A stretch of 64,000 nt of DNA, from contig OZ014411.1 of assembly GCA_963965975.1 (NCBI GenBank), positions 13,284,501 through 13,348,500 of the forward strand. The letters run 5' to 3'. The notes beneath the pieces were generated by a model. The model saw nothing but the letters and a program-made list of their open reading frames with translations. It was not told the origin of the DNA and did no database searches. The translations under genes were made by a program, and so were the position numbers. Shown piece after piece: positions 8,582 through 61,900 of this stretch. Source of the stretch: Xestospongia bergquistia. Lineage: Eukaryota; Porifera; Demospongiae; Haplosclerida; Petrosiidae. Positions within the stretch are counted from its first letter, which is position 1, and each line of letters begins with the position of its first letter.

Positions 8582-8584
8582 CAG

Positions 8585-12100: not shown

Positions 12101-13940
12101 GTATTGTATACATAGTACATGATATTACAATTATCATCCTCAGCAGTTAAAGAATATTCAGCCAGAACATCAGCTACAGAATAAAATGATCAATTAGAAT
12201 TAAAGATATATAAAAGATCAATCTTACATTGAGTAGTTATTAGAGAACCTCACTATATCATCTCCACTCCAGTTATCAATGTCTCACTATAAAATTAAAG
12301 GAAATAGTTTAGTACAACAGTGTCAAATTAATGATAGATCAAACTTACAGTCTAACTTATCAGAGAACATTAACATTATGTAGAATTATACAGTAGATCG
12401 AAGTCCCTCTAAAGTATTAAAATTCATGTTTAGTATATTATTATAACAGATATATGTTACAGTAGTCATCAGTTCAGATCATCATTACCAGTGACCATTA
12501 AACCTGTCCATCCTATTACAAAAAGTAATTCATTCAGTAGACAATTGTAAATAAATAGTTAGTAAATTTGTAATATGTAATAGATATGACTTATATATAC
12601 TATCTATTTCATAAGACTACACTAGATCTAGATCATCTCAAGTTGGTGTAGAACAAGTTACTATAATAGTGTAAGAGAATAAACAGTATAAACTTTTATT
12701 TATCAAGTCTTTCTATTAAATTACTAGCAGCAGAACACTCATTTCCAATAATCAATCATCTAACTGTCCTATTATAAAGTAATCCAAACCTAAAAAGGTC
12801 ATTTAAATTGTTGAGTTTAGAACAGTTCTCAACCAGTTCATCATCATCTCCAGTAGACTAGTAAACAATAGTCCTACTTTAAAATAAAATAAAAACTTAT
12901 AACATTGAAATAATTATTGTTATAAATTGACAAGAGTCTGTTGTATAGTAAAATTACAACAGTTCATATCACTTATTTGGGATAAAGGGAAGACCTTAGA
13001 TTTCAGAATAAACAAATTCAGATACCAGACAAACTTTACCTGTCATGTAAAACCTTTGATGCTAAGAGATTCATTTCTTCATATCCTCCAGGTCAGAAAT
13101 AATTATGAAAAATTCTAGATGCCAGCATAAAGACAATGATGCTAATAAAAACGTTTGTGTTAAGAAGCTAAGTAAAATACTAGATATTAGAAGTAAACAA
13201 TAAAAAAACAGATGCCAGTAAAAATCCTGATGATAGTAAATATCAATGAGATACCTATACTAGCTGAAATAAAAATTGTCAACAGACACAAGACGTCTAT
13301 CATTTCTGAACTATGTTTACACTGACACAGAGGATTAAATATACATAATAATATGACAGACACAGAGAGTTAACAATACAGGACAATACTCCAAATACAG
13401 AGGGTTAACAATACATAATAATATGACAAAAAGAGAGTTAACAATACAGGACAACACTATGAATACAGTGTTAAATATACAGGATTACAGAACAATACAA
13501 CAGACACAGAGTTGTGAACAATACAAGATAACGTGACAGATACAGAGGGTCAACAATACAAGATAATATGGGAGATACAGAGGATTAAAAATACAAGATA
13601 ATACAACAAACACAGAGTGTTAACAACACAGGGTAATATTACAGACACAGAGGGTTAATAATACAGGATAATACGACAGATATAAAGGATTAATATTTCA
13701 GAATCATACAAAGACAGAGGGTTAACAAAACAGGTTACTAAAACAAACACACAAAGGGAACAATTATAAACAAAAGTGTTAATAATTCAAGATTATACAA
13801 CAGACACAGATATAGAACATTTCAAGACAAACACAGAGGGAATGTTTCAGGATTACTACAACACACAAACAAAGGGTTTGGAGAATGAGGAAAGGTTGAT
13901 ATGTATGGAAGGGTCTGACATCATGAAACTATCTAGTAGA
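12100..13940. repeat. Duplicon C, copy 1 (~1.8 kb)
   Basis: Collinear with 23150–24925 at high identity, from agtattgtatacatagtaca through the 'ttgttgagtttagaacagtt' segment and the acagacacagaggg minisatellite, to gtctgacatcatgaaactat. Homology stops abruptly at about 13937, where copy 2 continues with different DNA. Copy 1 has an extra segment around 12590–12800 absent from copy 2. A partial third copy is at 36480–36800. Confidence 0.8.
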
Positions 13941-20389: not shown

Positions 20390-21525
20390 TTATGCACCAT
20401 ATTTACGAATAACATAATCAGTTAAAATGTAGTACCAGGTGGTCATGCGAGTACCACTGTTTGTTCCTTGAGAGACACCATAAGCGTGTACTCCAATGAT
20501 TGTGTACACATTATTACTGTTAGAGTAGTAGACAACACTCCCACTAGTATCACCATAAGTATCACACTTGTACCTCAGACATTTAGATTCAACTATAGCA
20601 AGAGGACAACTGGTACCATAGAAACACCAATTTGGGCTACTTGTTGTTGGGAGATCTGCTGAGTAGCAGTAGATAAAGATAGTTGTTAAAGTAACTGGAG
20701 GAATCACAAAAGTAAAGCTCATTGACACTGGAGAGGGAGTACCAACAATGATCCACCCAATATCATTTTCAGGGATACGATTGTTAATCCATCCGTCAAG
20801 GGTAACAGCAGCTTTCCAAGTGTGCTTTGTTCCTTGATTTGGATCACAATCCTTTGCCCGATGGACATTAAAATTAGAGTACCATCCAGTGTCACCATAG
20901 ACACAATGACCCGCAGTTAGAACAATCTTTGGTGCTACAAATGTTCCAGTACATCCGAGACCAACATGTCCAATGGCTGTATAAGGAAATCTGTTTGGAA
21001 CTTGTCATCTACGCGAGTCTGATCCAATGACAGAACATTTCTCAGCTAGATCCTCCAGTGAATCTTCTAGAACCTTACGAAAATCATTGTTAGCATGTGT
21101 AAGTACATCCTCATCTTGAGATTTATCATGAGGGTGTGTGGGTAGTTCCTCATTTTCATCATCTTTATCTTCTTTCGTGTAGAAGAGATTCTCCACTTCT
21201 TCTAATGATCCAGTATATTCATATCCATCTTTGGTCACCATAACGAGTCGAAGACCCTCCAGGAATTCATCTGTACCCTCAGGAGGTGCAGGTTTGTTGC
21301 TGAATTGGAGAGGCAGACCAATGATGTTCTTTATAGGAGAGAACTGAATTTTTTCCATCCATTTTTAGCAGGTCCAGCGTCTATGGACTCCCAAATGAGA
21401 ACAGAGCTAGTCAACACAAAAGGATCAATACTTTCGTTGTAACTTAAAACTTGCAAAGAAGTTAATGATAAGTTAATAGCATTGGTTGCAACAGCAGTGC
21501 TTAATTTTCTATAGTTGATCTCCAT
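20390..21525 (-). pseudogene. Glutamyl-endopeptidase-like (S1B, V8-type) serine protease, two lesions
   Basis: An intronless coding stretch on the reverse strand. The N-terminal pro-region runs from the ATG at 21525, shifts frame near 21345 and continues from about 21358. The mature start motif is CSVIGSDSRR, then a TGA (21005–21007), then QVPNRFPYTAIGHVG, which fits the V8-family pattern IG-x-D-x-R-x-x-V-x-N. The same frame then carries all three catalytic positions: His in TAGHC (20906–20908), Asp in ENDIGW (20762–20764) and Ser in GDTSGS (20543–20545), followed by the IGVHAYG strand. It ends at TAA 20390. No signal peptide is evident. One frameshift and one nonsense codon in an otherwise well-kept enzyme suggest a recent pseudogene, or sequencing error. 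The likely role was secreted or vacuolar endoproteolysis. Confidence 0.75.
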
Positions 21526-23150: not shown

Positions 23151-24925
23151 ATAGTCAATAGTATTGTATACATAGTACATGATATTACCATTATCATTGA
23201 CAGCAGTTAAAGAACACCCAGCCAGTTCATCAACTACAAAATAAAATGATCAATTAGAATTAAAGATATATAAAAGAACAATATTACATTAAGTAGTTAT
23301 TAAAGATCCTCACTACATCGTCTCCAGTCTAGTTACCAATGTTTCACTATAGAATTAAAGGAAATAGTTTAGTACAACATTGTCAAATTAATGATAGATC
23401 AAACTTACAGTCTAACTTATCAAAGAACATTAACATTATGTAGAATTATACAGTAGATCTAAGTCCCTCTAAACTACTAAAATCCATCTTTAGTACAGAA
23501 TTGTCCATATTACTATAACAGATATAAGTTACAGTAGTCATAAGTTCATGTAGATCAGATCATCACTACCAGTGACCATTAAACCTGTTCACCATACTAT
23601 AAAAAGTAATTCATTCAGTAGACAATTATAAATAAATAGTTAGTAAATTTGTAGTAAGTAATAGATATGACTTATAAGTACTATTCATTAATTATTTAAA
23701 TTGTTGAGTTTAGAACAGTTCTCAACCAGTTCATCATCATCTCCAGTAGACTAGTAAACAATAGTCCTACTATAAAAATAAAATAAAAACTTATAACATT
23801 GAAATAATTATTGTTATAAATTGACAAGAGTCTGTTGTATAGTAAAATTACAACAGTTCATATCACTTATTTGGGATAAAGGGAAGACCCTAGATTTCAG
23901 AATAAACAAATCCAGATAACAGAAAAAATTTACCCGTTATGTAAAACCTTTGATGTTAAGAGATTCATTTTTTCATATCCTCTAGGCCAGAAATAATTAT
24001 GAAAAATTCTAGATGCCAGGATAAAAACAATGATGCTAATAAAATCCTATGTGTTAAGAAGCCAAGTAAAATACTAGATATCAGAAGTAAACAATAAAAA
24101 AACAGATGCTGGTAAAAATCCTGATGATAGTAATTATCAATGACATAACATCCTAGCTGAAATAAAAATTGTCAGTTTTAGATTTCAGAATAATCATGAA
24201 AAATGAAATTCCTAGATCCAAATTATCAAGGGATAAGTTTGTATTGTAAAACAGAGACAAGACATTTAACATTTCCGAACTATGTTTTACACTGATACAG
24301 AGGATTTAAAATATATAATAATATGACAGACACAGAGAGTTAACAATACAGGACAATACTCCAAATACAGAGGGTTAACAATATGGGATTACTGAGCTAT
24401 ATGACAGACACAGAGAGTTAACAATACATAATAATATGACAAACAGAGAGTTAACTATACAGAACACTACAAATACAAAGGGTTAACAATACAGGATTAT
24501 AGAACAATACAACAGACACAGAGTTGTTAACAATACAGGATAACACGACAGATACAAAGGGTCAAGATAATATGGCAGATACAGAGGATTAAAAATACAA
24601 GATAATACAACAAACACAGAGTGTTAACAACACAGTGTAATATTACAGACACAGAGGGTTAATAATACAGGATAATACGACAGATATAAAGGATTAATAT
24701 TTCAGAATTATACAAAGATAGAGGGTTAACAAAACATGATACTAAAACAAACACACAAAGGAAACAATTACAAAACAAAAGTGTTAATAATTCAAGATTA
24801 TACAACAGATATAGAACATTTCAAAACAAACACAGAGGGAACATTTCAGGATTACTACAACACACACACAAAGGGTTTGGAGAATGAGGAAGGGGTTGAT
24901 ATATATGGAAGGGTCTGACATCATG
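23150..24925. repeat. Duplicon C, copy 2
   Basis: The counterpart of 12100–13940, including the acagacacagaggg minisatellite at about 24260–24900. It lacks the about 12590–12800 segment of copy 1. Confidence 0.8.
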
Positions 24926-34650: not shown

Positions 34651-36196
34651 TTAACAGAGTTCCAAAGCTAAGTCATCTCTCTCTTGTTCTAAATGTTGAT
34701 TTAATTCACTATACTTTTGTCTTTTAGCCTTGTACTCTTCACCTTTTATCATCAATAGTACGTCATCTTCCTTCTGCTTCAAACTGGTATAGAACACAGT
34801 GATAGCTGCATCATCTTGTGTTTGGAAGAGCTGTAGTCTTTCTCATAATTTATTTTTAACCGTTTCAAATTCTCTTTTGCTGTGTCTCTTTTGTTTTTTA
34901 TATTTATCAATTCTTGAGTCAATTCGTTGGAGAGTTTTCTCATTTAGTACTACATCAAGATGTTGTCCTCTGCTACTCTCGGAATGGAATTGGAGGGATT
35001 CTTGAAGTTTTGTCATTTGTATGTCCTTTTTTTGAGTTTGTTGCTAAGAGAATCCACCTGTTGAATGGATGTATGTAATGGATAGATACATGGATTAATG
35101 GATAGATAGGCGAGTATATCAATCAGAGAATGTACATATTACATATAATATTATATTATATGTACATTCACTAATGTACATATAATATAATATTATATTA
35201 TATGTACTCATCTCTAATGTACATATTACATATAATATTATATTATATGTACATTCTCTAATGTACATATTACATATAATATTATATTATATGTACATTC
35301 TCTAATGTACATATAATATAATATTATATTATATGTACATTCTCTAATGTACATATTACATATAATATTATATTATATGTACATTCTCTAATGTACATAT
35401 AATATAATATTATATAATATATTATATATATTATATGTACATTAGAGATGAGTACATAGACAGATGATTGGTACATGGATGATTGCATGGATAAATAGAT
35501 AGATAGAGAGATGGATAAATGGATGGATGGGTACTTGAATAGAAGAATGAATGTAGTGCATGAATGGATGGTTGAAAAGAGAAATAAACAATTACCTCTT
35601 TATGTAATTTTGCATAGTTTTAGGATCACAAGCTTCTAATAATTGAGCATTACATTCCAGTGTCTGTGTTCTCTCTAATCTCGGTCAGTTTCCATTTTAA
35701 TGCTAACATCTTGATGATCTTTTAATTACTTCTGACCTTCCTCTATTTTAAGTTGTTGACAACTGACTGCCCTCTGTTTCCAACCATCACATTTCTGTAA
35801 ACAGTTTCAATCTCTAGTGCTCCAACTAAAACTAGACGAATAGATTGATTAATGGATACATACATAAGTGTATCAATGGATTGAGAGATGAATGGATTAA
35901 TAGATAAGTATCTAATTTATATAATCAATGGATGGATCATCATGATGTAAATGGATACATGAACACACTAGTATGATATGTCCAGATAGACACAATTTGA
36001 TGTTAACTTACTTCAGAGGTCCTTCTGCTTTGTTCAGTTCTCTATAAATGTTGTCTCATTATTTCAACTTCTCTAGTTTTAGTTTCTATATCTTAAATAA
36101 GTGCTCTAGCTTGTTTCCAGTGCTCCTTTATTTCTGATGTGGGCGGATTGGATATTTGATATAAAGTTTTGTTCTCTTCTTCAAGTTTGGATAATC
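34651..36196 (-). pseudogene. Coiled-coil gene relic, three pieces
   Basis: Read right to left. 36018–36196 lies between an acceptor (catgttttag) and a donor (gtaagt) and reads LSKLEEENKTLYQ ... EIKEHWKQARALI, with TAA and TAG inside. 35590–35700 has RLERTQTLECNAQLLEA. 34651–35016 reads TKLQESLQFHSESSR ... LKQKEDDVLLMIKGEEYKAK, with one TGA at 34843–34845. All three have heptad-like K/E/L composition and nonsense codons. The relation to the + strand coiled coil at 152–800 is possible but unproven. Confidence 0.5.
35131..35454. repeat. AT-rich palindromic array
   Basis: About seven units of about 43 bp alternate between tgtacatattacatataata and its complement, each close to self-complementary, separated by 'ttctctaa'. 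The array is flanked on both sides by gatggata-type tetranucleotide repeats (about 35070–35120, 35455–35575). Cruciform-prone. Confidence 0.85.
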
Positions 36197-40928: not shown

Positions 40929-43900
40929 CTATTTACACACTATTTCATTGTTTAGTAAAGTAAGACAATAACATTATAATAGCTAAACTGTGTCTGTTCT
41001 GTTATCCATTTTCTAGGTTTAAGGAAATCCTGTCATTCATTTATTAATACTTGTTTCTTTTACCATAGAATTATAGTCTAATTGAATCTGCTAAGAAAGG
41101 GTACTTGTTAGGAGTAAAAGATGCTATTGTTAGAGGAGCTTATGTAAATACAAGAGATGAGGTAAATCTATTTTATCATTTTACATTGAAATCTAACACT
41201 TATTAGATGAATCACTAGTCTAAAAGTATCTTCTTTGAATTTGACTAACACTAGTTTTTATTTTCATTTTTTTGTTACTGTTTAAGTAATCAAAGTAACT
41301 AACAGAAGTAGTTTGACTATTAAGACTTTTTCAAAGAAGGAGAAGTATAACTTATGTTTGTTATTCATTGTTTGTTCACTGTATTTTCTATGCTGAGCAA
41401 CTTAAAGAGCTACATGTTATATTTTTGTCAGCTGAACTCTTTACTTAATATTATAGTTCTAAATTCTAATAATTTTCTGTTTACATGTTATGTACCATTC
41501 CCTCAGTCATGTATATACTTCAACTTATCTGGTTTAAATTAGTGTTAAAAGTTTATTCAAGTAACAAAGTCTTATTAATAATATATGTAGTCTAGTCCTA
41601 CATGTACCAAATGACTAATATGTAGACAATGTATGAATGCATCATATGATATATGTTATATGAAAAAAGCTATATAAGAGAAATTAAAATGTAACTTCTT
41701 TTTGCTAAAACTGGCAGTAGTTGTTATACTATTATAATAAAGTTTGAAATATTGTCTTTAAGAATATGTCAAATATAATGAATATTGGAAAGGGATACAA
41801 AGCTCTATCACAATGTTAATAAAAAGTGGTTTTTTTTCATAAGATGTGTATTAACCAATTTACCTACTTATTATCATTGGACATGATGAAATGACTAGAC
41901 ATGACATCACCATAAATTTTCCATAGTTGTATCATATGCTCAGACTAAAATAGCAGTAAAAGACATGAATTGAAGTATTAGTTGTCTGTTTAACATTGAA
42001 CTATTCAATTTAAATTGTTTATAATTGAAGTGTCCAGTATATTGCTCAGCTATAATTAGTATACTTTTTGCCATTTTGACAAATCCACAATTAAAAATAG
42101 TCAGCTTTTTTTAGTGTACAGACTGTTGAAGATCTATAGTATGTCAGATACAATAAATGTCAGATGGAGGTAATGCTTGTTATTGTAGTAGACTTATGAA
42201 TAATATAATTAAAAAGTCATGGTTTAATATTACAATTGATTATTATAATGACAAAGTAAAGAGATAAGACAAAAGACAAAGGTCTATATGTTTGTACTGT
42301 TATTATAGAGTTAATGATTTTATATTACAATTGATTCTTTGTATGTTTTCTTTAATAGAGAGGATGGTCAGCCCTTCATTATGCAAGTGAGAAAGGATAT
42401 GCAGATATTGTCGATGTATTAGTCAACCAAAATGCTGATATCAATACTGTTACTACGGTAATTTGGACCATAAAAATGAAGTGTAATTTTTAAGCTGTGC
42501 TAAGGGATAGTAACTATTAGACAAGACATAGCATCAACATTATAATGATACAAGACAATTGTACCTTACTTTAAACAATATATGATGTAGGAGGTAGCAT
42601 TGGTGTAAGTACACTATGATGTATTTTCTTCATTCTACTTTTAGTTTTGTTTGTGCCAAGATAATTACAAAAGTACAAGGCTTTAATGATCGTTTTTATA
42701 CAAACGTTATGTAATGTATATGCCTTTATAAGTGTTATTTCAAGTGGTTTAACAATGACAGTTAGAGTTTATACTGACCTTTTTCCATAACTATTGTGCT
42801 GTAATTACTTGTCATCTGAATTATGTCCTTAAAAATATAATAGGCGGTAAGTGTTATATAATGTAGTATAAATCCTAAGAGTATTGATTGTGACATTGAC
42901 ATTTTCTTACTCTATTGTTTTCTTCTTCCACATCTATTGTGCTGTAATTACTTGTCATCTGAATTATGTCCTTTAAAATATAATAGACGGTAAGTGTTAT
43001 ATAATATAGTATAAACCCTAAGATATTGATTGTGACATTGAGATTTTCTTACTCTATTGTTTTCTTCTTCCACCTTTATTGTGCTGTAATTACTTGTCAT
43101 CTAAATTATGTCATTCAAAATATATTAGGCGGTAAGTGTTATATAATATAGTGAAAATCCTAAGAATATTGATTGTGACATTGATATTTTCTTACTCTAT
43201 TGTTTTCTTCTTCCACATCTATTGTGCTGTAATTACTTGTCATCCTAATTATGTCCTTTAAAATATAATAGTCAGTAAGTGTTACATAATGTAGTATATA
43301 TCCTAAGAGTATTGATTGAGACATTGACATTTTCTTACTTTATTGTTTTCTTCTTCCACATCTATTGTGCTGTAAATACTTGTCATCTGAATTATGTTCT
43401 TTAAAATATAATAGGCTGTAAGTGATATATAATGTAGTATAAATCCTAAGAGTATTGATTGTGACATTGACTTTTTCTTACTCTATTGTTTTCTTCTTCC
43501 ACATCTATTGTGCTGTAATTACTTGTCATCGGAATTATGTCCTTTAAAATATAATAGGAAGTAAGTGTTATATAATGTAGTATAAATCCTAAGAGTATTA
43601 CTTGTGACATTGACATTTTCTTACTCTATTGTTTTCTTCTTCCACATCTATTGTGCTGTAATTACTTGTCATCTAAATTATGTCCTTTAAAATATAATAG
43701 GAGGTAAGTGTTATATAATGTAGTATAAATCCTAAGAGTATTGATTGTGACATTGACATTTTCTTACTCTATTGTTTTCTTTTCCACATCTATTGCGTTG
43801 TAATTACTTGTCATCTGAATTATGTCCTTTAAAATATAATAGTCGGTAAGTGTTATATAATGTAGTATAAATCCTAATAGTATTGATTGTGACATTGACT

Positions 43901-46900
43901 TTTTCTTACTCTATTGTTTTCTTCTTCCACATCTATTGTGCTGTAATTACTTGTCATCGGAATTATGTCCTTTAAAATATAATAGGAAGTAAATGTTATA
44001 TAATGTAGTATAAATCCTAAGAGTATTACTTGTGACATTGACATTTTCTTACTCTATTGTTTTCTTCTTCCACATCTATTGTGCTGTAATTACTTGTCAT
44101 CTAAATTATGTCCTTTAAAATATAATAGGAGGTAAGTGTTATATAATGTAGTATAAATCATAAGAGTATTGATTGTGACATTAACATTTTCTTACTCTAT
44201 TATTTTCTTCTTCCACATCTATTGCGTTGTAATTACTTGTCATCTGAATTATGTCCTTTAAAATATAATAGGCGGTAAGTGTTATATAATGTAGTATAAA
44301 TCCTAATAGTATTGATTGTGACAATGACATTTTCTTACTTTGTTTTCTTCCACATCTATTGTGCTGTAATTACTTGTCATCTGAATAATGTCCTTTAAAA
44401 TATAATAGTCAGTAAGTGTTATTTAATGTAGTATATATCCTAAGAGTCTTGATTGTGACATTGACATTTTCTTACTCTATTGTTTTCTGTTTCCACATCT
44501 ATTGTGCTGTAATTACTTGTCATCTGAATTATGTCCTTTAAAATATAATAGGCGGTAAGTGTTATATAATGTGGTATAAATCCTAATAGTATTGATTGTG
44601 ACATTGACATTTTCTTACTCTATTGTTTTCTTCTTCCACATCTATTGTGCTGTAATTACTTGTCATCTAAATTATGTCCTTTAATATATAATAGGCGGTA
44701 ATTGTTATATAATGTAGTATAAATCCTAAGAGTATTGATTGTGACATTGACATTTTCTTACTCTATTGTTTTCTTCTTCCACATCTATTGTGCTGTAATT
44801 ACTTGTCATCTGAATTATGTCCTTTAAAATATAATAGGCGGTAAGTTTTATATAATGTAGCATAAATCCTAATAGTATTGATTGTGACAATGACATTTTC
44901 TTACTCTGTTGTTTTCTTCTTCCACATCTATTGTCCTGTGATATCTTGTCATCTGAATTATATCCTTTAAAATATAATAGGATGTAAGTGTTATATAATG
45001 TAGTATATATCCTAAGAGGATTGATTGTTACATTGACATTTTCTTACTCTATTTTTTTCTTCTTCCACATCTATTGTGTTGTAATTACTTGTCACCTGAG
45101 TTATGTCTTTTAAAATATGATAGATGGTAAGTGTTATATAATGTAGTATAAATCATAAGAGTATTGATTGTGACATTGACATTTTATTACTCTAATGTTT
45201 TTTTTTGTCCATACCTATGTGCTGTGATCTCTTGTCACCTGAATTATGTCCTTAAAATATAATAGTTGGTAAGTGTTATATAATGTAGTATAAATCCTAA
45301 GAGTATTGATTGTAACATTGAGATTTTCTTACTCTATTGTTTTCTTCTTCCACATCTATTGTGCTGTAATTACTCGTCATCTGAATTACGTCTTATATAA
45401 TAGGATGTAAGTGTTATATAATGTAGTATAAATTCTAAGAGTATTGATTGTGACATTGACATTTTCTTACTCTATTGTTTTCTTCATCTACATCTATTGT
45501 GCTGTAATGATTTGTCATCTGAATTATGTCTTTTAAAATATAATAGATAGTAAGTGTTATATAATGTAGTATAAATCATAAGAGTATTAATTGTGACATT
45601 GACATTTTCTTACTCTATTGTTTTTTTGTCCATACCTATGTGCTGTGATCTCTTGTCGTCTGAATTATGTCCTTAAAATATAATAGTTGGTAAGTGTTAT
45701 ATAATGTAGTATAAATCCTAAGAGTCTTTATTTGGACATTGACATTTTCTTACTCTATTGTTTTCTTCTTCCACATCTATTGTGCTGTAAATACTTGTCA
45801 TCTGAATTACGCTTTTAAAAATATAATAGGATGTAAGTGTTATATAATGTAGTATAAATTCTAAGAGTATTGATTGTGACATTGACATTTTCTTACTCTA
45901 TTTTTTTCTTCTTCCACATCTATTGTGTTGTAATTACTTGTCATCTGAATTATGTCCTTTAAAATGTAATAGAAGGTAAGTGTTTCATAATGTAGTATAA
46001 ATCCTAAGAGTATTGATTGTTATATTGACATTTTCTTAATCTATTTTTTCTTCTACCGCATCTATTGTGTTGTAATTATTTGTCACCTGAATTATGTCTT
46101 TTAAAATATAATAGTTGGTAAGTGTTATATAATGTAGTATTAAACCCAAGAGTATTAATTGTGACATTGACATTTTCTTACTCTATTGTTTTTTTTGTCC
46201 ATACCTATGTGCTGTGATATTTTGTCATCTGAATTATGTCCTTTAAAATATAATAGCCGGTAAGTGTTACATAATGTAGTATAAATCCTAAGAGTATTGA
46301 TTGTGATATTGAGATTTTCTTACTCTATTGTTTTCTTTTTCCACATCTATTGTGTTGTAATTACTTGTCATCTGAATTATGTCCTTTAAAATGTAATAGA
46401 AGGTAAGTGTTTCATAATGTAGTATAAATCCTAAGAGTATTGATTGTTATATTGACATTTTCTTAATCTATTTTTTCTTCTACCGCATCTATTGTGTTGT
46501 AATTATTTGTCACCTGAATTATGTCTTTTAAAATATAATAGTTGGTAAGTGTTATATAATGTAGTATTAAACCCAAGAGTATTAATTGTGACATTGACAT
46601 TTTCTTACTCTATTGTTTTTTTTGTCCATACCTATGTGCTGTGATATTTTGTCATCTGAATTATGTCCTTTAAAATATAATAGCCGGTAAGTGTTACATA
46701 ATGTAGTATAAATCCTAAGAGTATTGATTGTTACATTGACATTTTCTTAATCTATTTTTTTCTTCTTCCACATCTATTGTGTTGTAATTACTTGTCACCT
46801 GAATTACGTTTTTTAAAATATAATAGTTGGTAAGTTGTTTATAATGTAGTATAAACCCTAAGAGTATTAATTGTGACATTGACATTTTCTTACTCTATTG

Positions 46901-49900
46901 TTTTTTTGTCCATACCTATGTGCTGTGATATCTTGTCATCTGAATTATGTCCTTTAAAATATAATAGCCAGTAAGTGTTACATAATGTAGTTAAATCCTA
47001 AGAGTATTGATTGTTACATTGACATTTTCTTAATCTATTTTTTCTTCTACCTCATCTATTGTGTTGTAATTACTTGTCACCTGAATTACCTCTTTTAAAA
47101 TATAATAGTTGGTAAGTTTTATATAATGTAGTATAAATCATAATAGTATTGATTGTTACATTGACATTTTCTTAATCTATATTTTTCTTCTTCCACATCT
47201 ATTGTGTTGTAATTACTTGTCACCTGAATTATGTCTTTTAAAATATAATAGTTGGTAAGTGTTATATATTGTAGTATAAATCCCAAGAGTATTAATTGTG
47301 ACATTGACATTTTCTTACTCTATTGTTTTTTTGTCCATACTAATGTGCTGTGATATCTTGTCATCTGAATTATGTTCTTCAAAATATAATAGCCAGTAAG
47401 TGTTATATAATATAGCATAAATCCTAAGAGTATTGATTGTAACATTGAGATTTTCTTGCTCTATTGTTTACTTCTTCCACATTTATTGTGTTGTAAATAT
47501 TTGTCATCTGAATTATGTTCTTTAAAATGTAATCAATAGTACGTGTTATATAAGGTAGTATAAATCCTAAGAGTATTGATTGTTACATTGACATTTTTTT
47601 AATCTATTTTTTTCTTCTTCCACATCTATTGTGTTGTAATTACTTGTCACCTGAATTACGTCCTTTAAAATATAATAGTTGGTAAGTGTTATATAATGTA
47701 GTATAAATCCTAAGAGTATTAATTGTGACATCGACATTTTCTTACTCTATTGTTTTTTTGTCCATACCTATGTGCTGTGATATCTTGTCATCTGAATTAT
47801 GTTCTTTAAAATATAATAGCCAGTAAGTGTTACATAATGTAGTATAAATCCTAAGAGTATTGATTGTGACATTGACATTTTCTTACTCTATTGTTTTCTT
47901 CTTCCGCATCTATTGTGCTGTAATTACTTGTCATCTGAATTATGTCCTTTAAAATATATTAGTCGGTAAGTGTTATATAATGTAGTGAAAATCCTAAGAA
48001 TATTGATTGTGACATTGACATTTTCTTTCTCTATTGTTTTCTTCTTCCACATCTCTTGTGTTACAATTGCTTGTCATCTGAATTATGTCCTTTAAAGTAT
48101 AATAAGTTAACTGTGATATGTTATTATAGTATTAGTTCTAAATCAGGGTTTTATTTAGAAAAATGGACAAAGGGGGGGGGGCAATATAATACGTAGAGAA
48201 AATTTAGGGGGGCAAAGGGACTGCAGGCAGCAGTGTGCCCTCTAGAGGAGTCTTGAGTCTTGCCTCCCAGAATTTTTGAATTTTAGACCCTCTGAGATTA
48301 CTTCTGGCATTTTTTCAGACCATTTGTGGTTTTCAAATAACATGATGAGATGACCATATTTCTGGTGGTGATAAGACATTTGGTACCTATAGACCAAGTT
48401 ACACTCGTGCTGATAAGACACTTAGGTGTAATTTAACACCCATAGACTATTGGTTAAAACTGTACATTCTCCTTGTGTTTAGCCTAAGGTTATCTTATAC
48501 TGTATATTCCTTGTGCTGAGTTTCAGTTCTGTATTCATTACATCCAATTATCCCTTGAAAAAAAATGGCTATCCTAATATCCAAATGAAACCCTGTAAAT
48601 GGACAGAATGAAATGTAAGATGATGCATGATTGTTAATCCTTGTGCAAATAATTGTTTATTATCATTATGTTGTTAGCTTGTAGTGGTGGATGATGAATG
48701 ATTATTTAAACTTGTACAATAATTAATCTAAGTATGTGTATATAGAGTGTCTTTTCGTATTTGTTTTATTGTAAAAACATATATCATGGACAATTGTTGT
48801 ATTATGTCCTAATTTTGAAGAAGTTTTTCCTTTATGTTACAAAAAGATATTTATTTTTGACACGGTATTTAATTTATATTTATAATCTTTTGTCAATTAT
48901 TGAAAGTGATTTGAGTCATATTTTGTTTGTATATGTAATGTTGTCTAGGTTTATAATGTTTATGCTGTATTTATATATAGCACTAGTGATATTGATAATG
49001 TACATATGTTATGATATATTCTCTTGGTTCATGTTAATGTAATTATTATAATATATTTAGGATGGATCTACACCAGTCATATTAGCGGCAATGAATGGAC
49101 ACAAAGATGTTGTTTTGATTTTAACCCATAAAAAAGCCAATCTAGACATTGTCAACAAAGTAAGTGTTCATGTATACATGTTATATGATAAAAGCTGTAT
49201 AAGTGAAATTATAATGTAACTTCTTTTACTAAAAGTGTCAGTAGTTGTTATAGTATTATAAAAAAGTTTGAAATATTATCTTCTAAAAATATGGCAAATT
49301 TAATGAATATTGGAAAGGGATACAAAGCTCTTATCACAATGTTAATAAAAAGTGTTTTTTATAAGATGTGTATTAACCAATTTACCTACTTATTATCATT
49401 GGACATGATGAAATGACTAGACATGACATCACCATAAATTTTCCATAGTTGTATCATATGCTCAGACTAAAATAGCAGTAAAGGAGATGAATTGAAGTAT
49501 TAGTTGTCTGTTTAACATTGAACTATTCAATTTAAATTGTTTAAAATTGAAGTGTCCAGTATATTGCTCAGCTATAATTAGTATACTTTTTGCCATTATG
49601 ACAAATCCACAATTAAAAATAGCCAGCCTTTTTTAGTGTACAGACTGTTGAAGATCTATAATTTGTCAGATACAATAACTGTCAGATGGAGGTAATGCTT
49701 GTTATTGTAGTAGACTTGTGAATAATATAATTAAAAAGTCATATGGAAGGACAAAGATGATGATTGTTGATATACTAAGCAACATAAATAACTACATGTT
49801 ATATTATTGTCAGTTAGAACATTGACTTAATAATATATTCTAATATTTTTTCTGTTAGCTTGTTGTTTTACAGTCCCTTAGATTACATTGTAACTGTATA

Positions 49901-52900
49901 TAATTTAAGCCATCTTGCATTAGTGCTAAAACAGTTATTTAAGTAATGAAGATTTATTAGTAATAGATGTAGTCATGTCCTTCATGTATAACGTGACTTA
50001 CATTTATATGATATATGAATGAAATATGTTATAATGATAATGATAATGTAAAGAGATAAGACAAAAGACAAGGTCTATATGTTTGTACTGTTATTATAGA
50101 GTTAATGATTTTATATTACAATTGATTCTTTGTATGTTTTCTTTAATAGAGAGGATGGTCAGCCCTTCATTATGCAAGTGAGAAAGGATATGCAGATATT
50201 GTCGATGTATTAGTCAACCAAAATGCTGATATCAATACTGTTACTAAGGTAATTTGGAGCATAAAAGTGAAGTGTAATTTTCACGCTGTGTTAATGGATA
50301 GTAACTATTAGACAAGACATAGCATCAACATTATGTTGATACAAGACAATTGTACCTTACCTTAAACAATATATGATGTAGGAGGTAGCATTGGTGTAAG
50401 TACACTATGATCTATTTTCTTCATTCTACTTTTAATTTGTTTGTGCCAAGATAATTACAAAAGTACAAGGCTTTAATGATCAATCTTATACAAACGTTAT
50501 GTTTTTATGTAATGTATATGCCTTTATAAGTGTTATTTCAAGTGGTTTAACAATGACCATTAGAGTTTATACTGACCTTTGAAGTAGCCTCTGTGTGAGA
50601 AACCATTTTAAAGCATTAATTAGTTATAACTATATTAACATGTACATAAGACAGACAATAAATTTGAAGAAATGTCACCAAGTCAATGTTCTATTCTGTT
50701 AGATTGCTTGCAATGTTTACATTTTGTTTACTCTATTGTTTTCTTTTTCCATAACTATTGTGCTGTAATTACATGTCATCTGTATTATGGGGCGTAATTA
50801 CTTGTCATCTGAATTATGTCTTTTAAAATATAATAGGCGGTAAGTGTTATATAATGTACTATAAATCCTAAGAGTATTGACTGTAACATTGACATTTTCT
50901 TACTCTATTGTTTATTTCTTCCATATCTATTGTGTTATAAATATTTGTCATCTGAATTATGTTCTTAAAAATATCATAGGAGGTAAGTGTTATATATTGT
51001 AGTGTAAATCCTAAGAGTATTGATTGTAACATTGACATTTTCTTACTCTATTGTTTTCTTCTTCCATCTGAATGGGTCCTTTATAATATAATAGTGGGTA
51101 AGTGTGATATAATGTAATATAAATCCTAAGTGTATTGAATGTAATCGATAATACGTCTTTTAAAATGTAATAGTTGGTAAGTGTTATATAATGTAGTATA
51201 AATCCTAAGAGTATTAATTGTGACATTGAGATTTTCTTACTCTATTGTTTTCTTCTTCCACATCTTTTCTGCTGTAATTTTTTCCCATCTGAATGTGTCC
51301 TTTACAATATAATAGGTTAACTGTGAAATGTCATTATAGTATTAGTTCTAAATCATTGTTTTATTTAGAAAAATGGACAAAGGGGGGGGGGGCAAAATAA
51401 TACTTAGAGAACATTTAGGGGGCAAAGGGACTGTAGGCAACAATGTGCACTTTAGAGGGGTCTGTAAGCATGCCTCCCAGAAAATTTTTTGAATTTTAGA
51501 CCCTCTGAGATTACTTCTGACACATTTTCGGACCATTTGTGGTTTTCAAATAACATGATGAGATGACCATATTTCTGGTGGTGATAAGACACTTGGTACC
51601 TATAGACCAAGTTACACTCGTGCTGATAAGACACTTAGGTGTAATTTAACACCCATAGACTATTGGTTAAAACTGTACATTCTCCTTGTGTTTAGCCTAA
51701 GGTTATCTTATACTGTATATTCCTTGTGCTGAGTTTCAGTTCTGTATTCATTACATCCAATTATCCCTTGAAAAAAAATGGCTATCCTAATATCCAAATG
51801 AAACCCTGTAAATGGACAGAATGAAATGTAAGATGATGCATGATTGTTAATCCTTGAGCAAATAATTGTTTATTATCATTATGTTGTTAGCTTGTAGTGG
51901 TGGATGATGAATGATTATTTAAACTTGTACAATAATTAATCTAAGTATGTGTATATAGAGTGTCTTTTCGTATTTGTTTTATTGTAAAACATATATCATG
52001 GACAATTGTTGTATTATGTCCTAATTTTGAAGAAGTTTTTCCTTTATGTTACAAAAAGATATTTATTTTTGATACAGTATTTAATTTATATTTATAATGT
52101 TTTGTCAATTATTGAAAGTGATTTGAGTCATATTTTGTTTGTATATGTAATGTTGTCTAGGTTTATAATGTTTATGCTGTATTTATATATAGCAGTAGTG
52201 ATATTGATAATGTACAGATGTTATGATATATTCTCTTGGTTCATGTTAATGTAATTATTATAATATATTTAGGATGGATCTACTCCAGTCATGTTAGCAG
52301 CAATGAATGGACACAAAGATGTTGTTTTGATTTTAACCCATAAAAAAGCCAATCTAGACATTGTCAACAAAGTAAGTGTTCATGTATGCATGTTATATGA
52401 TAAAAGCTGTATAAGTGAAATTATAATGTAACTTCTTTTACTAAAAGTGTCAGTAGTTGTTATAGTATTATAAAAAAGTTTGAAATATTATCTTCTAAAA
52501 ATATGGCAAATTTAATGAATATTGGAAAGGGATACAAAGCTCTTATCACAATGTTAATAAAAAGTGTTTTTTATAAGATGTGTATTAACCAATTTACCTA
52601 CTTATTATCATTGGACATGATGAAATGACTAGACATGACATCACCATAAATTTTCCATAGTTGTATCATATGCTCAGACTAAAATAGCAGTAAAGGAGAT
52701 GAATTGAAGTATTAGTTGTCTGTTTAACATTGAACTATTCAATTTAAATTGTTTAAAATTGAAGTGTCCAGTATATTGCTCAGCTATAATTAGTATACTT
52801 TTTGCCATTATGACAAATCCACAATTAAAAATAGCCAGCCTTTTTTAGTGTACAGACTGTTGAAGATCTATAATTTGTCAGATACAATAACTGTCAGATG

Positions 52901-55900
52901 GAGGTAATGCTTGTTATTGTAGTAGACTTGTGAATAATATAATTAAAAAGTCATATGGAAGGACAAAGATGATGATTGTTGATATACTAAGCAACATAAA
53001 TAACTACATGTTATATTATTGTCAGTTAGAACATTGACTTAATAATATATTCTAATATTTTTTCTGTTAGCTTGTTGTTTTACAGTCCCTTAGATTACAT
53101 TGTAACTGTATATAATTTAAGCCATCTTGCATTAGTGCTAAAACAGTTATTTAAGTAATGAAGATTTATTAGTAATAGATGTAGTCATGTCCTTCATGTA
53201 TAACGTGACTTACATTTATATGATATATGAATGAAATATGTTATAATGATAATGATAATGTAAAGAGATAAGACAAAAGACAAGGTCTATATGTTTGTAC
53301 TGTTATTATAGAGTTAATGATTTTATATTACAATTGATTCTTTGTATGTTTTCTTTAATAGAGAGGATGGTCAGCCCTTCATTATGCAAGTGAGAAAGGA
53401 TATGCAGATATTGTCGATGTATTAGTCAACCAAAATGCTGATATCAATACTGTTACTAAGGTAATTTGGAGCATAAAAGTGAAGTGTAATTTTCACGCTG
53501 TGTTAATGGATAGTAACTATTAGACAAGACATAGCATCAACATTATGTTGATACAAGACAATTGTACCTTACCTTAAACAATATATGATGTAGGAGGTAG
53601 CATTGGTGTAAGTACACTATGATCTATTTTCTTCATTCTACTTTTAATTTGTTTGTGCCAAGATAATTACAAAAGTACAAGGCTTTAATGATCAATCTTA
53701 TACAAACGTTATGTTTTTATGTAATGTATATGCCTTTATAAGTGTTATTTCAAGTGGTTTAACAATGACCATTAGAGTTTATACTGACCTTTGAAGTAGC
53801 CTCTGTGTGAGAAACCATTTTAAAGCATTAATTAGTTATAACTATATTAACATGTACATAAGACAGACAATAAATTTGAAGAAATGTCACCAAGTCAATG
53901 TTCTATTCTGTTAGATTGCTTGCAATGTTTACATTTTGTTTACTCTATTGTTTTCTTTTTCCATAACTATTGTGCTGTAATTACATGTCATCTGTATTAT
54001 GGGGCGTAATTACTTGTCATCTGAATTATGTCTTTTAAAATATAATAGGCGGTAAGTGTTATATAATGTACTATAAATCCTAAGAGTATTGACTGTAACA
54101 TTGACATTTTCTTACTCTATTGTTTATTTCTTCCATATCTATTGTGTTATAAATATTTGTCATCTGAATTATGTTCTTAAAAATATCATAGGAGGTAAGT
54201 GTTATATATTGTAGTGTAAATCCTAAGAGTATTGATTGTAACATTGACATTTTCTTACTCTATTGTTTTCTTCTTCCATCTGAATGGGTCCTTTATAATA
54301 TAATAGTGGGTAAGTGTGATATAATGTAATATAAATCCTAAGTGTATTGAATGTAATCGATAATACGTCTTTTAAAATGTAATAGTTGGTAAGTGTTATA
54401 TAATGTAGTATAAATCCTAAGAGTATTAATTGTGACATTGAGATTTTCTTACTCTATTGTTTTCTTCTTCCACATCTTTTCTGCTGTAATTTTTTCCCAT
54501 CTGAATGTGTCCTTTACAATATAATAGGTTAACTGTGAAATGTCATTATAGTATTAGTTCTAAATCATTGTTTTATTTAGAAAAATGGACAAAGGGGGGG
54601 GGGGGCAAAATAATACTTAGAGAACATTTAGGGGGCAAAGGGACTGTAGGCAACAATGTGCACTTTAGAGGGGTCTGTAAGCATGCCTCCCAGAAAATTT
54701 TTTGAATTTTAGACCCTCTGAGATTACTTCTGACACATTTTCGGACCATTTGTGGTTTTCAAATAACATGATGAGATGACCATATTTCTGGTGGTGATAA
54801 GACACTTGGTACCTATAGACCAAGTTACACTCGTGCTGATAAGACACTTAGGTGTAATTTAACACCCATAGACTATTGGTTAAAACTGTACATTCTCCTT
54901 GTGTTTAGCCTAAGGTTATCTTATACTGTATATTCCTTGTGCTGAGTTTCAGTTCTGTATTCATTACATCCAATTATCCCTTGAAAAAAAATGGCTATCC
55001 TAATATCCAAATGAAACCCTGTAAATGGACAGAATGAAATGTAAGATGATGCATGATTGTTAATCCTTGAGCAAATAATTGTTTATTATCATTATGTTGT
55101 TAGCTTGTAGTGGTGGATGATGAATGATTATTTAAACTTGTACAATAATTAATCTAAGTATGTGTATATAGAGTGTCTTTTCGTATTTGTTTTATTGTAA
55201 AACATATATCATGGACAATTGTTGTATTATGTCCTAATTTTGAAGAAGTTTTTCCTTTATGTTACAAAAAGATATTTATTTTTGATACAGTATTTAATTT
55301 ATATTTATAATGTTTTGTCAATTATTGAAAGTGATTTGAGTCATATTTTGTTTGTATATGTAATGTTGTCTAGGTTTATAATGTTTATGCTGTATTTATA
55401 TATAGCAACTTACACAATCAGCAATCTCAGGGTTAGCATTTTTTTACTCTAATTTTTTTTTCTTCCACATCTATTGTGCTGTAATTACTTGTCATCTGAA
55501 TTATGTCCTTTACAATACAATAGTTGGTAAGTGTTATATAATGTAGTATAAATCCTAAGAATATTGATTTTGACATTGACATTTTTCTTACACTATTTTT
55601 TCTTCTTCCACATCTATTGTGCTGTAATTACTTGTCATCTGAATTATGTCCTTTAAAATATAATAGGCGGTAAGTTTTATATAAAGTAGTATAAATCCTA
55701 AGAGTATTGATTGTGACATTGACATTTTTTTACTCTAATTTTTTTTTTCTTCCACATCTATTGTGCTGTAATTACTTGTCATCTGAATTATGTCCTTTAC
55801 AATACAATAGTTGGTAAGTGTTATATAATGTAGTATAAATCCTAAGAATATTGATTTTGACATTGACATTTTTCTTACACTATTGTTTTCTTCTTCCACA

Positions 55901-58900
55901 TCTATTGTGCTGTAATTACTTGTCATCTGAATTATGTCCTTTAAAATATAATAGGCGGTAAGTGTTATATAAAGTAGAATAAATCCTAAGATTATTGATT
56001 GTGACATTGACATTTTTTACTCTAATTTTTTTTTCTTCCACATCTATTGTGCTGTAATTACTTGTCATTTGAATTATGTCCTTTAAAATATAATAGTCGG
56101 TAAGTGTTATATAATGTAGTATAAATCCTAAGATTATTGATTGTGACATTGACATTTTCTTACTCTATTGTTTTTTTGTCCATAATATGTGCTGTGATAT
56201 CTTGTCATCTGAATGCAATACAATAGTTGGTAAGTGTTATATAATGTAGTATATTTCCTAAGAATAATTATTGATTGTGACATTGAGATTTTCTTACTCT
56301 ATTGTTTTCTTCTTCCACATCTATTGTGCTGTAATTACTTGTCATCTGAATTTTGTCTGTTAAAATATAATAGGATGTAAGTGTTATATAATGTAGTATA
56401 TTTCCTAAGAATTTTAATTGTGACATTGACATTTTCTTACTCTTTTTTTTGTCCATACCTATGTGCTGTGATATCTTGTCATCTGAATTATGTCCTTTAA
56501 AATATAATAGGTGGTAAGTGTTTTATAATGTAGTATAAATCCCAAGAGTATTGATTGTGACATTGACATTTTCTTACTCTATTGTTTTCTTCTTCCACAT
56601 TTATTTTGCTGTAATTACTTGTCATTTGAATTATGTCCTTTAAAATAAAATAGTTGGTAAGTGTTATATAATGTAGTATAAATCCTAAGAGTATTGAGTG
56701 TAACATTGACATTTTCTTACTCTATTGTTTTCTTCTTCCACATCTTTTGTGCTGTAATTACTTGTCATCTGAATTATGTCCTTTAAAATATAATAGGCGG
56801 TAAGCGTTATATATTGTACTGTAATTCCTAAGAGTAATGATTTTAACATTGACATTTTCTTACTCTATTTTTTCTTTTTCCACATCTATTGTGTTGTAAT
56901 TACTTGTCACCTGAATTCATCTTTTAAAATATAATAGAAGGTAAGTGTTATATAACGTAGAATAAATCCTAAGAGTATTGATTGTGACATTGACATTTTT
57001 TTACTCTTTTTTTTTTCTTCCACATCTATTGTGCTGTAATTACTTGTCATTTGAATTATGTCCTTTAAAATAAAATAGTTGGTAAGTGTTATATAATGTA
57101 GTATAAATCCTAAGAGTATTGAGTGTAACATTGACATTTTCTTACTCTATTGTTTTCTTCTTCCACATCTATTATGCTGTAATTACTTGTCATCTGAATT
57201 ATGTCCTTTAAAATATAATAGGCGGTAAGTTTTATATAAAGTAGTATAAATCCTAAGAGTATTGATTGTGACATTGACATTTTTTTACTCTAATTTTTTT
57301 TTTCTTCCACATCTATTGTGCTGTAATTATTTGTCATCTGAATTATGTCCTTTACAATACAATAGTTGGTAAGTGTTATATAATGTGGTATAAATCCTAA
57401 GAGTATTGATTGTGACATTGACATTTTCTTACTTTATTGTTTTCTTCTTCCACATCTTTTGTGCTGTAATTACTTGTCATCTAAATTATGTCCTCTAAAA
57501 TGTAATAGCCGGTAAGTGTTATATAATGTAGTATAAATCCTAAGAGTATTGATTGTGACATTGAGATTTTGTTACTCTATTGTTTTCTTCTTCCACATCT
57601 ATTGTGCTGTAATTACTTGTCATCTAAATTATGTTCTTTAAAATATAATAGGAGGTACATGTTATATAATATAGTATAAATCCTAAGAATATTGATTTTG
57701 ACATTGACATTTTTTACTTTATTTTCTTTTTCCACATCTATTGTGCTGCAATTTTTTGTCATTTAAATTATGTCCTTTAAAATATAATAGTCGGTAAGTG
57801 TTATATAATGTAGTATAAATCCTAAGATTATTGATTGTGACATTGACATTTTCTTACTCTATTGTTTTTTTGTCCATAATATGTGCTGTGATATCTTGTC
57901 ATCTGAATGCAATACAATAGTTGGTAAGTGTTATATAATGTAGTATATTTCCTAAGAATATTGATTGTGACGTTGAGATTTTCTTACTCTATTGTTTTCT
58001 TCTTCCACATCTATTGTGCTGTAATTACTTGTCATCTGAATTTTGTCTGTTAAAATATAATAGGATGTAAGTGTTATATAATGTAGTATATTTCCTAAGA
58101 ATTTAATTGTGACATTGACATTACATTTTCTTACTCTTTTTTTGTCCATACCTATGTGCTGTGATATCTTGTCATCTGAATTATGTCCTTTAAAATATAA
58201 TAGCCAGTAAGTGTTTTATAATGTAGTATAAATCCTAGGAGTATTGATTGTGACATTGACATTTTCTTACTCTATTGTTTTCTTCTTCCACATTTATTTT
58301 GCTGTAATTACTTGTCATTTGAATTATGTCCTTTAAAATAAAATAGTTTGTAAGTGTTATATAATGTAGTATAAATCCTAAGAGTATTGAGTGTAACATT
58401 GACATTTTCTTACTCTATTGTTTTCTTCTTCCACATCTTTTGTGCTGTAATTACTTGTCATCTGAATTATGTCCTTTAACATATAATAGTCGGTAAGTGT
58501 TATATAATGTAGTATAAATCCTAAGAGTATTGATTGTGACATTGACATTTTCTTACTCTATTGTTTTCTTCTTCCACATCTATTGTGCTGTAATTACTTG
58601 TCATCTAAATTATGTCCTCTAAAATGTAATAGCCGGTAAGTGTTATATAATGTAGTATAAATCCTAAGAATATTGATTGTGACATTGAGATTTTTTTACT
58701 CTATTGTTTTCTTCTTCCACATCTATTGTGCTGTAATTACTTTTCATCTGAATTATATCTTTTAAAATATAATAGGAGGTAAGTGTTATATAATAACTAA
58801 CCTGTATTTGTTGTGTGTGTTATTTCTCCTTTTACATATACACAGGATGGTCAAACTGCTTTGTACATTGCATCTGAGAAAGGCAATAATGAATGTATTG

Positions 58901-61900
58901 AACTTCTTCTTAAAGCCAATGCTAACCCTGACATTGCTGATTGTGTAAGTTGTGACATTTTAAATTGTTTATTCACTAAAAAAGAAAAAGAACGTTATAT
59001 AGAATATACAATGTCCTAAAACATTTTCTTAATAATTATCTATTGTTGGAAGGAAACATTGTGTGTTTTATTCGATCACTTTTGTGTCATTTATATTTAG
59101 CATTCATTTGTTATTTGTCCTCTTAATTATACATAGAATGGCCGAACCGCTTTGTACGTTGCATCTGAGAAAGGCAATAATAAATGTGTTCAGCTTCTTC
59201 TTAAAGCCAATGCTAACCCTGAGATTGTGTTCTATGTTCCATCATCTTTTACCAATTGTGGAAGGAGTGCCTATGTATAAGTTGGGATTTTACTGTGAAA
59301 TGTCTGAAATTGCGCTATTCATGAAAATGTTTCCCTTAGAATATTTCCATCATACAATATTTACTATCAACAGATAGTCTTGACTAGTTATTCTTGACCA
59401 GTGTCATATGATATATATGTCCATGAGCACATGGTTTGCATTATAGGAGAGAATATTTTGCACTAATGATGTAGTTTATTAAACATTTGACAGTGAGATA
59501 CCCAATACTTAAGGTTTAATCTTTATATCTATGTTTTACTTTGACTCATATCATATCTCTTTATATTATTATGTCATGTAGTATGGTCGCACAGCACTTC
59601 ATGCAGCATATTGGACTAAAAATGATGTCATTACAAAGATGTTAGTTAATGCTAATGCCAACAATTTAGAAGCTGTAAAAACTGTAAGTCATAATGTTAT
59701 TAGTTTATATGCATATTTATATATGCAGTGTGTCTTTTTAAGTTGCTTTCTATTTGTAATGCTTATTATGATTAATTTATATTTTATGTAATTATAGCAT
59801 TTGCAACATACAGATATGTATAAATAAACATATATATGTATATATATTCATGTGAATCATATAAGTACAGTAATTATTAGTTAATGTTGTTTGGGTAATA
59901 GAAGAACAATTTGCTGGAATAATATTCAATAGTGTAACAATGTATTTGCGCATTTTGAAGTACATACATACACTAAGTATAAGTGTTCTATACAAATGTA
60001 TATACATTTTACAATTCAGAAGAGTATTATGTTTTAGTGTGAACAGTAAGAAATTTTATCGCTTCTATTTAGGACACTTTACTTTTGGAATCTTCAAGAG
60101 AAGGACAATTGGAAGGGGTTAAGGATGCTCTGTCAAGTGGAGCTATTGTTAACATTGGAAACAATGTATGCTGACTTGTCATTGATAATGTTAAGTATAT
60201 GTACACAACAATGAGGGTTATATTGTAGATACAGGTACTGTGTAAAACAAACCCAATGGCTAACAGACCCAACTGGTAGTTTATTTCCCTATGAAATTTT
60301 AATGAGAGTATATGCCTCATAACAGTCATGAGTACTTCATAACAGATTATGAATATTTATCAAGAAAGTGGTTATGACTTCATATAATGATACAAAATAT
60401 TGACCACATCAGTGTTTTTCCTAATAAATTGTCTAATTTTAGTTTACGCTAAAGAAATTTTTTCTCATGACTGGAAATGAAACTAACTCCATTTTATTCA
60501 AACACATTTATATAATTATACTAATCTGTATTTGTTGTGTGTGTTATTTGTCCTTTTACACATACCCCATAGTGGTCCATGAGTACTTGATAACAGATTA
60601 ATGGATATTTGTCAGACAATAGTTATCACTTCATGTAATAGCAATTGAATATTGACCACATCAGTGTTTTGCATAATGAATTGTTAATAAGAGGTTTAAT
60701 GTTGATTTAACCTCATGCTGAAGAAGTTTTTGCTCATGACTTCGAATGAGATTTGAAACATTTTTTCAAGTATTGTTATGTCATTCATAATAACCTACAT
60801 TTGTTATGTATATTTTACATATACATAGGATGATCAAACTGCTTTGTACATTGCATCTAAGAAAGGCAATAATGAATGTGTTCAACTTCTTCTTAAAGCC
60901 AATGCTAACCCTGACATTGCTGATTGTGTAAGTTGTGACATACATTTTATGGTTTATTCAATAAAAAAGAAAAAGAACGGTATATAGCATATACAATGTT
61001 CTAAAACTTTTTCTTAATAATTATCTATTGTTGGAAGGAAACATTCTGTGTTTTATTTAATCACTTTTGTGTCATTTATATTTAGCATTTATTTGTTATT
61101 TGTCCTTTTACATATACATAGAATGGTCAAACTGCTTTGTATATTGCATCTAAGAAAGGCAATCATGAATGTGTTCAACTTCTTCTTAAAGCCAATGCTA
61201 AGCCTGACATTGCTGATTGTGTAAGTTGTGACATACATTTTATGGTTTATTCAATAAAAAAGAAAAAGAACGGTATATAGCATATACAATGTTCTAAAAC
61301 TTTTTCTTAATAATTATCTATTGTTGGAAGGAAACATTCTGTGTTTTATTTAATCACTTTTGTGTCATTTATATTTAGCATTCATTTGTTATTTGTCCTC
61401 TTACATATACATAGAATGGCCGAACCGCTTTGTACATTGCATCTGAGAAAGGCAATAATGAATGTGTTCAGTTTCTTCTTAAAGCCAATGCTAAGCCTGA
61501 CATTGCTGATTGTGTAAGTTGTGACATACATTTTATGGTTTATTCAATAAAAAAGAAAAAGAACGGTATATAGCATATACAATGTTCTAAAACTTTTTCT
61601 TAATAATTATCTATTGTTGGAAGGAAACATTCTTTTTTTTATTTAATCACTTTTGTGTCATTTATATTTAGCATTTATTTGTTATTTGTCCTTTTACATA
61701 TACATAGAATGGCCGAACCGCTTTGTACATTGCATCTGAGAAAGGCAATAATGAATGTGTTGAGTTTCTTCATATTAATGAGCCAAAAGATGATATCCAT
61801 AATAGTGTTAATTCCTACTACCTATGCATATAATCTTGGTAGTGGAATATGATTGGTCAACCGAAATATACTCAATTGTGACCTTCCTTCCCTTTTGCAT

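Follow-up and report, generated by a model that had tools for sequence, protein, structure and literature searches.

The window analysed here is a stretch of 64,000 nucleotides from the sponge Xestospongia bergquistia (contig OZ014411.1, named C1 below; C1:13284501-13348500), and the genome scanned comprises 146 Mb in 21 contigs. Introns between ankyrin exons of this window contain a satellite of ~143 bp whose units carry a splice acceptor, three variable bases and a splice donor in the order AATAG-NNN-GTAAGTG. Judged from the sequence, these triplets are probably one-codon exons that are spliced successively and write hypervariable inserts at the junctions of ankyrin repeats. Each unit would consist of an ordinary small intron (~140 nt) and one 3-nt exon. 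The upstream ankyrin exon would be joined to the first AATAG and the GTAAGTG three bases further on would act as the next donor, leaving one codon behind at each hop while dozens of 140-nt introns are removed in order. The protein would gain a variable insert where two ankyrin repeats meet, presumably the tip of a beta-hairpin loop, in which inserts would be exposed. Unit number would shift by duplication and loss, and exchange would homogenize the intron bodies while the codons diverge. With the next unit's donor ~146 nt away, the distance is that of a normal exon and may be compared with the cryptic exon that Drosophila recursive splicing reportedly needs at a ratchet point (according to part of PMC8605326). 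Such an organization would represent a new mode of encoding a protein segment, with 3 coding bases per ~143, and would imply that spliceosomes can process dozens of consecutive 3-nt exons and that a mechanism exists to convert tandem-repeat instability into peptide diversity. Annotation would probably treat such coding DNA as satellite, and gene models and short-read mapping can overlook it. The open-access literature searched showed no tandem array of one-codon exons, a negative that does not prove there is none.

The satellite described in the original prediction is real, the pattern is more pronounced than described there, and it extends beyond the window. The window holds 59 exact matches to AATAG-NNN-GTAAGT on the + strand and none on the - strand, 73 unit matches in a profile search and 68 triplets preceded by an AATAG-like acceptor and followed by GTA; antisense copies of the unit motif are absent from the window and from the loci read. 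The unit resembles a complete intron (GTAAGTG ... CTGAAT ... AATAG) with three bases to the next one, and its consensus features are, in order, GTAAGTG, a long mid-unit pyrimidine stretch, CTGAAT near the acceptor, AATAG, the triplet and the next GTAAGTG. Of 402 units, 319 have the branch-like CTGAAT, the second A of which is 23 columns upstream of the G of AG. Note that the sequence adjoining the AG is CTGAAT ... TCCTTT and that the long pyrimidine stretch is found elsewhere, in the middle of the unit; the position of the pyrimidine-rich stretch that had been proposed to precede each AG/GT pair is thus corrected. The spacer between AG and GT measures 3 nt in all 282 strict matches and in 51 of the 52 units of loci L038 and L039 (related arrays, see below). 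Both AG and GT are intact in 514 of the 540 ungapped units, as expected of a 3-nt microexon with AG before and GT after it, and the donor is GTAAGT in 475 of them. Spacer and splice-site counts were made on units with ungapped cores (gapped: 39/486 and 50/590, some of which are array ends). An AG is missing from the ~102 nt upstream in 462 of 506 units, a weak sign of AG exclusion as the chance value for the consensus is 0.036 and a third family has an extra AG. Rfam structured RNAs (at gathering scores) and tRNAs gave no match. A hairpin of AATAG-NNN-GTAAG with CTTACTCTATT was considered and rejected, the fold of 1.5 units (221 nt) being no better than shuffles (z-score +0.47). The exact unit pattern has no match in viral contigs and prokaryote genomes, as expected because the host is an animal.

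Variation is concentrated in the triplets. The column test started from 510 matches, of which 24 in locus L018 were dropped as duplicates of the window and 64 short or gapped ones were omitted, leaving 422 near-complete units. When the 143 columns are ranked by entropy, those of the triplet take places 141, 142 and 143 (1.73, 1.92 and 1.57 bits, the next-highest column reaching 1.10), and the AG and GT columns are more conserved than they are, in line with the near-invariant splice sites of the original prediction. When the triplet columns are left out of a tree of 415 units, a design that somewhat favours high step counts for them, the triplets need 102, 106 and 101 steps while the other columns have a mean of 7.1 and a maximum of 25. 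The splice-site columns do better than the means of their base classes (2 and 3 steps for the A and G of AG, 6 and 3 for the G and T of GT, where the class means are 6.2 for A, 12.2 for G and 4.7 for T). A fairer test compares 105 pairs of body-identical units: the triplet columns differ in 6.7-9.5% of cases and single body columns in 0.8% on average (maximum 6.3%). Between sister arrays, whose units were aligned by their bodies, body divergence is 1.6-2.0% and triplet divergence 15-21%, a ratio of 7.7-11.3 over six comparisons that are not independent and cover 20 to 40 units each from arrays of 31 to 52, unlike units being left unaligned. A seventh comparison, between the two large arrays of the window, aligned just 5 units. 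The triplets had been said to vary freely: they are indeed variable, with the restriction that C hardly ever occupies the third position (1/447). CpG decay was rejected as the entire cause of the variability, AGA, GAT, GAG, TTT and AAG being common variants.

Stops among the triplets are scarce, as codons would require. Of 590 units from the cluster at C1:13.2-13.67 Mb and from C1:16.16 Mb, the 540 ungapped ones show 32 distinct triplets and no stop, and independent columns would predict 31 stops among the first 447 units. Among 148 inferred single-base changes 13.5-14.1 stops are expected and none is seen (P 2e-7 to 4e-7, a value that assumes independent changes, whose independence is not full). 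The pattern AATAG-NNN-GTAAGTG occurs at 2323 places in the genome, its reversed control at 19, and stops amount to 8 of the 2323 (TAR 3, TGA 5). The other counts are TAY 16, TGB 129, VAR 437, VGA 96, TYR 587 and VAY 159, so that TAA/TAG is depleted about 15-fold: setting TAR 3 and TAY 16 against VAR 437 and VAY 159 gives an odds ratio of 0.068 (P 4.5e-7, the places not being independent). Stops are thus rare but do occur, perhaps in units that have decayed or are not used, and one of the three TAR places lies outside any array. In-order read-outs would yield strings with a high content of L, A, D, R, E, F and S. A helix-like periodicity of these strings (24 strings, 551 residues, units with gapped cores dropped) was discarded: there is an excess at 90 degrees (reached by 11/500 shuffles) and at 100 degrees (35/500), and 3-unit repeats confound it.

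The exons that flank the arrays are 99 nt long, in phase 0, and match the Pfam domain Ank in the two exons tested. Because the flanking exons are in phase 0, any number of triplets preserves the frame. Exons were sought by DNA similarity to two exons of the window, with no requirement for an open frame, in the window and 26 fetched loci, a search that heavily decayed copies could escape. It returned 52 ankyrin exons, all open and 99 nt long, and 50 of them bordered by AG/GT, in agreement with the phase-0 host introns noted earlier. Those of the type preceding array 1 (RGW) are intact with AG/GT in 24 of 26 cases and those of the type following it (DGSTP) in 26 of 26. The two remaining RGW exons (L033 6711 and L034 1941) have AT in place of the donor GT and are otherwise intact. 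Introns between such exons hold 0 to 57 profile matches (gapped ones included, some arrays being truncated where a fetched stretch ends), and one sister intron, which retains a single relic unit, measures 280 nt. A protein search with the joined ankyrin exons yielded 1366 matches; among the best 120 of these, the first by E-value has 56% identity over half of the query (Gigantopelta), the highest identity is 64% over 46%, and none is a near-identical relative. The 3-nt microexon and protein-diversifying role that were among the original proposals are partly supported by the column conservation, the scarcity of stops and the intact phase-0 exons.

A number of observations weigh against successive one-codon exons. 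The sister-array alignment forces a collinear order and is thus no proof that unit order is kept. A 2-nt spacer occurs once (in L039), an altered AG or GT is seen in 26 of 540 units (3 of them GC donors), and 50 of 590 matches have a gapped core and were excluded from the counts. In the related 136-bp family the donor G ranks 23 of 134 in variability and hence shows no special conservation. Seventeen triplets that do not end in C are missing from the 540 units, which makes the absence of stops weak when judged by distinct triplets alone (about 0.04), and two of the three TAR places lie inside arrays of other families (TAG in L036, TAA in L037). The DGSTP exons have no third-position excess (0.029, 0.034, 0.031) and the RGW exons a slight one (0.072, 0.036, 0.081). 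Synonymous changes are not depleted, neither among the single-base events (27/148, expected 30-34) nor among the triplets changed between sister arrays (13/64, six comparisons). Selection on the amino acid is unsupported because an exclusive favouring of amino-acid change would make synonymous changes rarer, which they are not. Hypermutation, or gene conversion that shuffles old alleles, fits the hypervariability as well as amino-acid selection does; the triplet/body ratio of the sister arrays is near the one given by standing diversity (about 0.69 per site against 0.08), as allele shuffling predicts.

The evidence for successive splicing is shared by a scheme in which the one-codon exons are used singly or in small sets, as a palette of residues comparable to mutually exclusive or optional exons. 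This use is unlikely, even if the altered splice sites tolerated in 26/540 units and the wide range of unit number in sister introns (some with none listed or one relic, others with up to 57 matches) speak for it: the near-uniform donors (GTAAGT in 475/540) give no sign of choice among units, and the collinear alignment that places 20 to 40 units of arrays of 31 to 52 also opposes it, weakly since the order is forced. The near-chance proportion of synonymous changes (27/148) is what a mutational process would give, and the triplet might accordingly be a hot spot of mutation or a remnant of the way the arrays grow, and never be translated, the satellite resembling an intron by coincidence. We regard this as improbable in view of the few stops among the genome-wide places (8/2323, odds ratio 0.068), the length fixed at 3 nt (282/282 strict matches) and splice-site columns conserved beyond their base class. 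Two further proposals of the original prediction, a decoy array and the drift of a collapsed exon trapped in a satellite, both leave unexplained the missing stops and the 7.7 to 11.3 times higher divergence of triplets than of bodies in sister arrays.

The layout is akin to that of Drosophila ratchet points, which have the appearance of a zero-nucleotide exon (part of PMC8605326), and the AG/GT pairs could aid removal of a long intron by recursive splicing with no triplet reaching the mRNA. Such a ratchet is very improbable. The length of the intron is due to the array itself, the sister intron with one relic measuring 280 nt; codon-like triplets with few stops are not explained by a pure ratchet; and no strict match has the AG directly abutting the GT, three bases lying between them in each. 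An origin from introner-like mobile introns, the triplet being a 3-bp target-site duplication, would have a parallel in an Aureococcus family that carries both splice sites and adds 12 bp to the transcript (part of PMC9860276). Here the units are in tandem and in one orientation, the consensus ends share 0 leading bases and so form no terminal inverted repeat, and only 73 of the 495 adjacent pairs share the same triplet (the mean after shuffling is 56, and 10 of 2000 shuffles attain 73) where duplication predicts identity at fresh insertions. This origin is most improbable, and one-codon exons spliced in succession stay the preferred reading.

Two related families show a similar pattern of variability. 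In a 136-bp family (59 units) the triplet accounts for ranks 1, 2 and 7 among 134 columns, and in the third family (21 units) for ranks 2, 1 and 12 among 143. The 136-bp relatives L039 (C1:9.625-9.6315 Mb) and L038 (C1:9.858-9.861 Mb) have small triplet palettes (TTT, CGA, GAA, GAT and TTT, CTA, GAA, CAA, AAA, ATT, respectively) whose third base is exclusively A or T, unlike in the main family. No ankyrin-like host exons of these other array families were found in the short stretches read. At genome scale there could be more than 2000 one-codon exons, the satellite arrays writing hypervariable loops in ankyrin and perhaps other genes, and repeat turnover might diversify a recognition protein in the manner of NLRs or antibodies; we offer this broader view tentatively, as a possible candidate recognition system in an early-branching animal. 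The 129 places with TGB triplets are nearly all TGG among the matches listed. AATAG-TGG-GTAAGTG is recurrent at C1:20.3-21.0 Mb, C5:3.4-4.1 Mb and C7:3.8-4.1 Mb, where places ~635 bp apart represent another arrangement.

Exons of the Schistosoma micro-exon genes (MEGs) vary in length and sequence. The coding region of these genes is made mostly of very small symmetrical exons, and some mature regions have a dN/dS above 1 (as reported in part of PMC4350168). In the sponge arrays, in contrast, every exon would be a single codon and a single satellite unit supplies all the introns; with regard to a coding region made mostly of tiny exons, up to 57 profile matches lie between 99-nt exons. Ratchet points of Ubx and other Drosophila genes likewise juxtapose an intronic acceptor and donor for stepwise use and usually leave nothing in the mRNA (part of PMC8605326), whereas three bases separate the sites here, in dozens of consecutive units. 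That a one-codon exon can be spliced is known from the 3-nt microexons of mouse Ncam and Drosophila troponin T (part of PMC8042270), which are single and not arranged in hypervariable tandem arrays. The high-internal-conservation repeats of fungal NLRs (het-d and het-e of Podospora) combine concerted evolution with hypervariable sites under diversifying selection (part of PMC12222747); there the repeat is protein and the variable sites lie within it, while here the repeat is intron and the exon would be the codon alone. Introners are also near-identical intron families, some with both splice sites (part of PMC9860276), but they insert at many places, and the duplications and inverted repeats that mark some of the described families were looked for in these arrays without success.

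The satellite had been reported as occupying 42841..58790. Its units are confirmed and do not make up a single run: the arrays, all on the + strand, form several blocks split by ankyrin exons and other intron sequence. The intron of each array starts after an ankyrin exon of RGWSALHY type and is followed by an exon of DGSTP type, or DGQTALYI for the last. Array 1 (42779..48104, ~37 units, mostly 140-143 bp) is preceded by an exon of 33 codons in phase 0 (42359..42457, +, RGWSALHY...NTVTT; AATAG before, GTAATT after; Pfam Ank 1.7e-8) and followed by another (49061..49159, +, DGSTPVILAAMNGH...DIVNK, 33 codons, phase 0; Pfam Ank 7.6e-7). It has 36 triplets preceded by an AATAG-like acceptor and followed by GTA, the first at 42844-42846 and the last at 47963-47965, which in genomic order would read ATASAEESEEASAAADMLDILDKLPKLPLPLLPLPS; an additional unit at ~47.5 kb has an altered AG. 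The anatomy of a single unit is illustrated by 42982..43123 (+), with the acceptor AATAG at 42982-42986, the triplet at 42987-42989, the donor GTAAGTG at 42990-42996 and the pyrimidine stretch at ~43044-43072; the following acceptor (ATTAG) begins at 43124. Array 2 (50795..51195, +) lies between an RGW exon (50150..50248, +) and a DGSTP exon (52273..52371, +), both from an ankyrin exon scan that required an open frame and hence does not bear on intactness, as are the two exons flanking array 3. Its triplets at 50837, 50980, 51095 and 51174 are GCG, GAG, TGG and TTG, and the step from 51095 to 51174 is just 79 bp, yet both splice sites are retained. Array 3 follows an RGW exon (53362..53460, +). 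Its first block (54007..54407, +; triplets at 54049, 54192, 54307 and 54386) is identical to array 2 in triplets and spacing, and the second (55437..58794, +) has 24 triplets from 55524 to 58778, in order LALASLDVLAKLALPESLDPFSPE. The ankyrin exon after it is at 58846..58944 (+, DGQTALYIASEKGNNE...). At array ends (window 48095-48180 and 51310-51395) AATAAG or AATAG is followed by GTTAACTGTG in place of triplet and donor, and then by a poly-G tract; similar ends are present in other arrays. Ankyrin exons of DIADC type are repeated together with their introns every 293 bp at window 60829-61806 (97% matches, with divergence towards the end of the last copy), which is a tandem expansion of whole exons adjoining the arrays.

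Other elements of the window include Gypsy-like retroelement open frames at 5426-9030 (-), one of which has reverse transcriptase and RNase H domains, and a trypsin-like open frame at 20390-21004 (-). Two sets of ~35-bp AT-rich tandem repeats (11026-13734 and 24297-24755) share the word GTTAACAATACA, and a tandem 44/86-bp AT repeat at 35129-35420 (92-95% matches) is palindromic by eye. Elsewhere in the genome, contig C21 (18,997 bp) carries COX1 with an internal TGA. With TGA translated as Trp, 221 COX1 residues show 92% identity to Anemonia viridis, 90% to Trichoplax adhaerens and up to 94% to other contigs, which indicates a probable non-bilaterian animal. COX1 pieces with stops are found at C6:3154917-3200446, where they are probably mitochondrial DNA in the nucleus.

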